In this document: one piece after another, positions 32,322 through 33,368 of the stretch
Numbering within the stretch: the stretch's first letter is position 1
How the letters are laid out: every line of letters begins with the position of its first letter
Notes under the pieces: model-generated
What the model saw: the letters and a program-made list of their open reading frames with translations, nothing else
What the model was told of the DNA's origin: nothing
Databases searched by the model: none
Assembly (NCBI GenBank): GCA_003194525.1
Contig: NBIV01000009.1
Location: 310,001 to 374,000 of the forward strand
DNA length: 64,000 nucleotides
Direction of reading: 5' to 3'
Source: Gracilariopsis chorda
Taxonomy: Eukaryota > Rhodophyta > Florideophyceae > Gracilariales > Gracilariaceae
Program-made: the position numbers and the translations under genes

Positions 32322-33368
32322 TTATGGCTCCATACAATCAAGTATATGACCACGATCAGTATCGATTGCCAAAGTGTGGTAGACACCCCCAGTTCCATGC
32401 AGGGTAAGAAGATAGACACCAGCAGGAAGATAAACAACATCTGTGAGACGAATCGAGTGACCATGTCCATGAACCCTTTGAAGGTTTGCATCACGCTGAG
32501 AAAGGTGTTTTTGTAAATCACGGAGGTCTCGAATCCGAGGCGCGGGGATACCAAACTGCTCAAAAGCATTCTGATAACCTCGGAACCTTTCCCAGTAATC
32601 ATGACAAACAGAAGCGTGGAGGGCATGCAACCCATTGCATAACGCTGTGGGTAGACATAAACCAGTCTCGTCCCGGAAGCGAATGGGCTGCACGTGAGAT
32701 AGCTCGTAATCCCTAAGGGTGGGATTGGGCTCTCGAGAACGGCCAGTAGACATTCGTAAATAACGTCCTGGGTTCTTGAAGCACCACTCGTCCACCTCGG
32801 AAATTGCCATGATTCGATTATCCGTGCCAAACCTAAAGTTTCCAGATTCGGTCACGGAATGAAACATCGATGCGTTGGAAGGAGTACCGAATATGCGAAG
32901 GGTATACAGATCAATGGCGTGTTCGCGCTGAGTAGCTTCGTCCACACCATAGTAGTATCCATGTTTGAATACTATTTTCTCAATTACCCAAGAGTACCCC
33001 TCAAGTGCGCTATAGTCGACGTTGTCCTTCACGGAAAGCGTCAGCCCTAAACGGTAGAGATCATTGAAAGAGAGCTCCTCCCATGGGGAGTCTTCAAGGA
33101 ACATAAGAATATGCGGATCTAGAAGTTGCCAGAACTCTTCTCTCGTGAACTGACCTTCGTCGCCGTTGGAGCAACGTATGACAAATTGACGTAGCCCTAC
33201 CCGGCCGTCCAGAATCTTCACCTTCTCCACATCACCACGTCGAGAAAACCTCAAGAGAAGATTATCTCTAGGGTTAAATGGAATAGCTTTTATGATTTTC
33301 GTTCCAATGTGATGATATGGAGGGGCTTCGCATACCGTCTTCTTAGCGGTGGGCTTTGTACGAGCCAT
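32322..33368 (-). CDS. antisense ORF in Ty3 element: H3-tail-like N-terminus, papain-like C-terminus
   Basis: An intact 348-codon ORF inside the retrotransposon, on the strand opposite gag-pol, between integrase and the 3' LTR. ATG lies in a good context (AACATGG). The N-terminus after Met is ARTKPTAKKT; histone H3 begins [10 protein letters not shown], so seven of the first nine residues match and the other two are Q to P and R to K. Residues 47-84 resemble an SH3-like or chromo-like barrel (VEKVKILDGR). The C-terminal third has Cys238 in GLCLPTAL, His331 in YHTLAID and Asp344 in HILDC, the order and spacing expected for papain-fold or OTU-like peptidases. Function is unknown. It could act on chromatin readers or ubiquitin, which is inference. 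No sequence decay is visible although the integrase is damaged. Confidence 0.7.
   Translation of the reverse strand: MARTKPTAKKTVCEAPPYHHIGTKIIKAIPFNPRDNLLLRFSRRGDVEKVKILDGRVGLRQFVIRCSNGDEGQFTREEFWQLLDPHILMFLEDSPWEELSFNDLYRLGLTLSVKDNVDYSALEGYSWVIEKIVFKHGYYYGVDEATQREHAIDLYTLRIFGTPSNASMFHSVTESGNFRFGTDNRIMAISEVDEWCFKNPGRYLRMSTGRSREPNPTLRDYELSHVQPIRFRDETGLCLPTALCNGLHALHASVCHDYWERFRGYQNAFEQFGIPAPRIRDLRDLQKHLSQRDANLQRVHGHGHSIRLTDVVYLPAGVYLLTLHGTGGVYHTLAIDTDRGHILDCMEP

Follow-up and report, generated by a model that had tools for sequence, protein, structure and literature searches.

Why a mobile element should carry a gene that begins like a histone is the question raised by the locus described here. 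It lies in a stretch of 64,000 nucleotides from the red alga Gracilariopsis chorda (G000:C9:310001-374000, in an assembly of 91.3 Mb), hereafter called the window. An earlier note had described positions 32322..33368 as an intact antisense gene of a retrotransposon whose N-terminus mimics the tail of histone H3 and might recruit or titrate chromatin readers or modifiers.

The antisense ORF and the element that carries it

The ORF listing with translations confirms an open frame on the minus strand, running from 33368 to 32322 and comprising 348 codons and a stop, which starts with MARTKPTAKKT (longer opening: MARTKPTAKKTVCEAPP) and which, within a Ty3-type element, lies in antisense orientation in the interval from pol to the 3' LTR. 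Its Met is situated where the earlier note had placed it, being the first ATG past an in-frame stop, and an ATG is found at this position in 27 of 32 tails of clade A and 10 of 12 tails of clade B, the two clades of copies described below. The following features were assigned:

27107-27111: target-site copy TGTAC on the 5' side, read from the bases
27112..27281, plus strand: 5' LTR, TG...CA (repeat D2; ends read from the bases)
27182..29107, plus strand: gag-protease ORF, taken from the earliest start codon of its frame, which falls inside the LTR
29132..31971, plus strand: pol (RT, RNase H, integrase), broken in the window copy
32127..32321, minus strand: former C-terminal part of the antisense ORF beyond the stop; full copies read through to a basic, bipartite-NLS-like end
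32322..33368, minus strand: antisense ORF, from which the stop removes about 66 residues found in full copies
32325..32663, minus strand: residues 236-348 of the antisense ORF, with conserved C238, H331 and D344
33279..33368, minus strand: H3-tail-like segment, the N-terminal 30 codons (MARTKPTAKKTVCEAPPYHHIGTKIIKAIP)
33994..34163, plus strand: 3' LTR (repeat D2; ends read from the bases)
34164-34168: target-site copy TGTAC on the 3' side, giving a 5-bp duplication

The element is of the Ty3 type, having LTRs (of the 174 bases of repeat D2, 171 are identical in the 3' copy) with a target-site duplication and gag-PR followed by RT-RH-INT. Aspartyl protease models of Pfam match the gag-protease ORF, the best of them at E 1.6e-9, and the pol of the window copy has lost its continuous frame through in-frame stops and a frameshift near 31310. 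Upstream of the antisense ORF start, between this start and the 3' LTR, GC-rich tandem repeats are present (33613-33884), which are a possible site of the ORF promoter. Elsewhere in the window, RT- and integrase-like pieces of another, broken Ty3-type element were seen by eye (40929-42228, minus strand), and a minus-strand ORF contains a perfect 34-nt direct duplication (25642-25709).

A search of the genome with the ORF yielded 100 matches at E <= 0.001, distributed over 61 places that are separated by more than 5 kb. Twenty regions of 8 to 8.5 kb were read around ORF copies; pol was present in 15 and absent in 5, and in all 15 it is oriented opposite to the ORF and ends at the far (3') side of the ORF, as in the window. 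In L040 a different pol, matched at 35%, is present in addition and has the same strand as the ORF. For the reciprocal comparison, 150 of 2522 pol candidates were scored and 54 of these 150 rows were taken, namely all those of at least 57% identity and the next 17 down. An ORF lies within 6 kb of pol at 35 of the 37 pol places that are at least 68% identical to the window, hence in most copies of the lineage, versus none of the 17 pol places of 48-56% identity, and we therefore consider the ORF to be the mark of one element lineage. Two clade B proteins, searched up to E 10 and inspected by eye, revealed no extra ORF at the 48-56% pol places. At G000:C43:285745, 292468, 299193 and 305916, four ORF copies, the last one partial, follow each other at a spacing of about 6.7 kb, in the manner of a tandem array.

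A quick tree made without the tail (49 of 51 rows) splits the copies, by a branch with an SH-aLRT of 100, into a clade A of 34 rows, including the window, and a clade B of 15 rows; 27 of the 46 inner branches are below 80. Outside this genome, no relative of the window protein was found among 5.8 billion proteins at E <= 10, nor was a relative of the ORF found among viral contigs. Searching with the alignment returned one match outside the genome, P0001, which by eye is nearly the sequence of L042 and thus does not count as independent, since it must come from this or a very close genome.

The ORF of the window turned out not to be intact. The stop at codon 349 is present in only 4 of the 47 copies that have this codon (the window, L011, L018 and L052) and is lacking in the other 43, and full copies end at codon 414. 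In seven fetched copies (L003-L006, L008, L009 and L015) the frame runs unbroken through 413-414 codons; nine rows are without a stop, two of which (L054 and L055) were not counted as unbroken because they mix pieces from different frames. The last 30 residues are similar in both clades (SKRPRHHNDNHTKRRRRHASHREEEVIVLD in L009, SKRTRHRHDNHSKRRRRHASHLEEEVIVLD in L025) and display a bipartite-NLS-like pattern in L003, of which the full ORF is L003:1303-2544.

Likeness to the histone H3 tail

In the relatives, the H3-like stretch extends over about 28 residues, compared to the ten noticed at first. The host H3 (read from L031), the clade A tail as found in the window (ARTKPTAKKTVCEAPPYHHIGTKIIKAIP) and the clade B tails (ARTHTTTERTLEGQVPEERIATKVAKKGP in L025, ALTHTATERTLGGQVPGKRITTKAAKKGP in L046) align without gaps. 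The retention of H3 residues, numbered from the one after Met, was counted over 44 of 48 tails, leaving out L017, L029, L040 and L051 in which the match is late or shifted. Among the 32 tails of clade A, R2 is kept in 27, T3 and K4 each in 30, T6 in 29, A7 in 28 and K9 in 29, and further along the tail P16 and T22 each in 27 and K23 in 31. The 12 tails of clade B keep R2 (8), T3 (9), T6 (5), G12 (10), G13 (10) and P16 (12), followed by K18 (9), A21 (9), T22 (12), K23 (10), A24 (8), A25 (9) and K27 (11), and they carry H at position 4 in 12/12 and R at position 9 in 10/12. The claim that R2, T3, K4, T6, A7 and K9 are kept thus holds for clade A and fails for clade B at positions 4 and 9. Likewise, sister elements lacking the ARTKxTAxK start do exist, namely those of clade B, yet these preserve other parts of the H3 tail, including the ATKAA-K27 stretch; clade A is without K18 and K27. 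As clade B is devoid of K4 and K9 and clade A of K27, none of these three methyl-mark sites is common to both clades. ART, P16, T22 and K23 are the commonest residues at their positions in both clades, with K23 present in 31/32 tails of clade A and 10/12 of clade B.

Searches of PDB sequences gave the same picture. With the window tail alone no match was obtained at E 10, while a single clade B tail found H3 at E 0.035, a profile of eight clade B tails found it at E 0.005, and a profile of 16 tails (eight of each clade) reached a best E of 3.6e-5, with residues 1-28 aligned to H3 1-28 without a gap. This set comprised eight of the 12 B tails, the four interrupted by a stop within their first 30 codons being excluded, and eight of the 32 A tails, hand-picked for spread. 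The best 60 of the 125 PDB rows obtained with the 16-tail profile are all H3 or H3 chimeras. A shuffled control (the same 31 columns, 15 of the 16 rows) did not retrieve H3 from the PDB but one kinase at E 1.6, and the reversed profile had no match there. When the columns of these same tails were permuted, none of 200000 permutations reached the observed score against H3 1-28 for clade A, for clade B or for both together. For H3 positions 11-28 alone, 103 of 200000 did so for clade A and none for clade B or for both together, such that residues 11-28 match H3 independently, most strongly in clade B. Over 91 Mb, the pattern ATGGCNCGNACNAARNNNACN (M-A-R-T-K-x-T in the tested codons, with Arg as CGN only) has 23 matches, consisting of two H3 genes and 21 ORF copies, compared to 6 when it is read backwards. 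The likeness to the H3 tail hence lies above that of composition-matched controls, and the idea of an H3 mimic gains support because the likeness exceeds a coincidence of ten residues.

The resemblance to H3 is confined to residues 1-28. No histone fold follows the tail, and neither the window protein nor a 414-residue copy was assigned to a Pfam family at E <= 1. The genome also contains a divergent H3 (G000:C5:561699-562178; matched to H3 as two pieces that are 54% and 68% identical to it), which is perhaps a centromeric variant.

Selection on the ORF and origin of its N-terminus

Purifying selection acts on the ORF, with a dN/dS of 0.30 over its whole length among eight clade A copies (the seven unbroken ones and L002, which has one late stop). 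By region, dN/dS in these copies amounts to 0.37 for codons 2-30, 0.25 for 31-225, 0.33 for 226-348, 0.77 for 349-384, indicating weak constraint, and 0.24 for 385-414. Between clades A and B, pN of the whole ORF is 0.292 at a pS of 0.78, which is near saturation. The basic end (385-414) has the lowest pN of five regions in this comparison (0.163) and the tail is the fastest region (0.464). The earlier note had asked whether the first ten residues are conserved above the rest, and such a specially conserved start is not borne out, because the pN of codons 2-11 is undercut by many ten-codon windows: 207 of 338 among nine A copies unbroken to codon 348, 125 of 338 among 22 A copies, 138 of 338 among 13 B copies and 250 of 338 between A and B.

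The likeness suggests that the element may have taken over a chromatin signal from its host, by borrowing or copying, and an origin from an H3 gene is favoured by the 28 residues that run collinear with H3 without a gap. Codon usage offers a hint in the same direction, and only a hint since related rows and uncorrected codon bias enter the count: at 187 of 294 matched residues, clade A uses the codon of the intronless host H3 gene, with 94.5 expected under uniform use. Agreement with a second host H3 gene, 85 of 294, falls under this expectation, and clade B agrees with the two genes at 45 and 28 of 137 residues (41.8 expected). When the 400-base stretches preceding the two host H3 genes were compared with the element loci, the best match covered 14 bases (E 0.36).

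If the 5' end of an H3 gene was captured, the sequence need not be read by anything today: it could simply have supplied a start codon and persisted as a basic, flexible leader that is tolerated. This remains a strong rival in view of the rapid evolution of the tail, which outpaces the body in the comparison of the clades, and because K4, K9 and K27 are not common to the clades, each of which has lost different mark sites; the clade A codons that match the intronless H3 gene, with the reservation on related rows and uncorrected bias made above, fit it as well. It is nevertheless opposed by the relative scarcity of nonsynonymous changes in the tail (one-sided Fisher p 0.0038 to 0.035, hence below 0.05 in all four A-B pairs tried, which share one divergence), by the fact that ART, P16, T22 and K23 prevail in both clades and by the codons of the second H3 gene and of clade B, and we hold it to be rather unlikely. 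Selection for a chromatin reader might also have shaped an H3-like peptide from unrelated sequence, without descent from H3. Convergence tends to copy short sites, and the match to be explained here is ungapped and collinear over 28 residues, including GG, P and ATKAA, which makes this origin improbable; on its side are the upstream regions, which, the H3 loci themselves aside, have no significant match in the loci compared, and the occurrence of histone-like motifs in unrelated proteins, such as VRTK in PAF15 according to the parts of the source consulted (PMC8034647). That ten residues of a basic N-terminus look like H3 by mere chance has hardly any probability left. The window copy taken alone, which finds no H3 in the PDB at E 10, would allow it; it is contradicted by the composition-matched controls, by the permutations and by residues 11-28, which match H3 independently.

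The body of the ORF provides a different starting point. C238, H331 and D344 are retained in 38/49, 43/47 and 43/48 copies, respectively, and for this reason we name as a weak rival that the ORF encodes a papain-like cysteine hydrolase, with the tail as a pseudosubstrate or as a means of targeting histone tails. Papain-like hydrolases possess a Cys-His-Asp/Asn triad in the order C-H-D, as these residues have, and the weak model of residues 215-348 places a helix right after the Cys and the His within a sheet. AlphaFold2 models of all 348 residues and of residues 215-348 are unusable however (mean pLDDT 37.7 and 44.3, respectively), a search for similar folds with the second of these models retrieved nothing at E <= 0.001, the ORF body has no significant match among PDB sequences, and over 74 members the weak Pfam matches point to seven unrelated families, each in at most three members. 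Taken together with the lack of a Pfam family, this leaves the hydrolase very improbable. A chromodomain suspected by appearance at residues 45-80 was dismissed, as Pfam gave none.

Proposed role and known systems

We favour, with a probability of roughly one half, the reading that a Ty3-type element without a chromodomain carries the ORF as an accessory gene for a nuclear protein of about 414 residues, whose H3-like N-terminus would be presented to readers or modifiers of chromatin. It builds directly on the gene, its place, its two clades, the match to H3, purifying selection and the basic end. The protein would be composed of an N-terminus derived from or copying H3 1-28, a body of unrecognised fold and a bipartite-NLS-like basic end, this conserved end being a predicted nuclear signal by which it would enter the nucleus. 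Removal of the Met would expose a free A-R-T... end, which host readers or modifiers of the H3 tail would then take, with the outcome that readers are either drawn to the nuclear complex of the element or kept off its chromatin. Recruitment and titration, the two options of the earlier note, fit these findings alike, and expression of the ORF is presumed in both. More tentatively, and with the odds somewhat against it, the whole N-tail of H3 (1 to about 28) may have been captured from the host and fused to a nuclear accessory protein, after which the clades divided its sites, both keeping ART and K23, one K4 and K9 and the other K18 and K27, so as to hold a false tail against a silencing chromatin system.

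The chromatin setting of the element was surveyed with Pfam domains. In the unbroken pol end of the sister copy L003 (381-aa C-terminal part, Pfam E <= 1), H2C2 and rve were recognised and no chromodomain, so that the one copy examined lacks the C-terminal integrase chromodomain of chromoviruses. In the genome, scoring 150 of 1784 chromodomain candidates gave at least 150 matches, next to 7 PHD matches, and candidate readers of the H3-like end therefore exist. One partial phycobilisome-domain match (E 9.8e-5) accords with a red algal source, though it would not establish it by itself. The number of chromodomain matches looks as if chromoviruses are widespread in this genome. A C5 DNA-methylase domain was not found in the genome, nor was an SRA (UHRF1-type) domain, the latter absence being weak because the SRA control matched in none of 14 genomes. 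A link to UHRF1 and DNMT1 in the style of PAF15 is disfavoured by these two absences, of which the SRA part weighs little.

Several known systems resemble the algal ORF in part. The aORF-3R genes of plant LTR retrotransposons (Grande gene23, RIRE2, Retand and PvRetro13), the function of which is given as unknown in the portions of the source consulted, are likewise antisense, located between pol and the 3' LTR and present in most copies of their lineage (PMC7264820). Their proteins are described there as having no clear similarity to other proteins, although PvRetro13 is noted to possess an SMC domain and Retand a transposase 28 domain, and by these descriptions they are set apart from the algal ORF with its H3-tail-like N-terminus; neither 'histone' nor 'chromatin' appears as a word in this source as far as its text is available (PMC7264820). 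A nuclear location is reported for gene23 in the same parts of that source (PMC7264820), whereas the algal ORF only has its suggestive basic end. PAF15 is, in the excerpts at hand, a non-histone protein of which the extreme N-terminus resembles the start of H3 and the H3-like VRTK is bound by the PHD domain of UHRF1, but it is a host gene with a short motif, as opposed to a mobile-element gene with about 28 residues (PMC8034647). Chromoviruses, as presented in the part of the source consulted, are Ty3 elements with an integrase chromodomain, one group of which has a cage recognising H3K9me; they share with the algal element the Ty3 gene order and a tie to H3-tail biology, but they read the H3 tail where the algal element would present one (PMC3605345). 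In the available text of a source on retrotransposon accessory domains, the word 'histone' does not appear (PMC6338049), and titles and abstract openings of the open-licence literature contained no report of an H3 tail in a retrotransposon ORF.

If the proposed role is correct, this element would fight or use silencing by displaying a histone tail itself, the reverse of reading one with a chromodomain. The H3-like start gives a concrete and cheaply testable handle on antisense accessory genes, and the two clades, in which different marks are kept, constitute a natural experiment on which readers matter.
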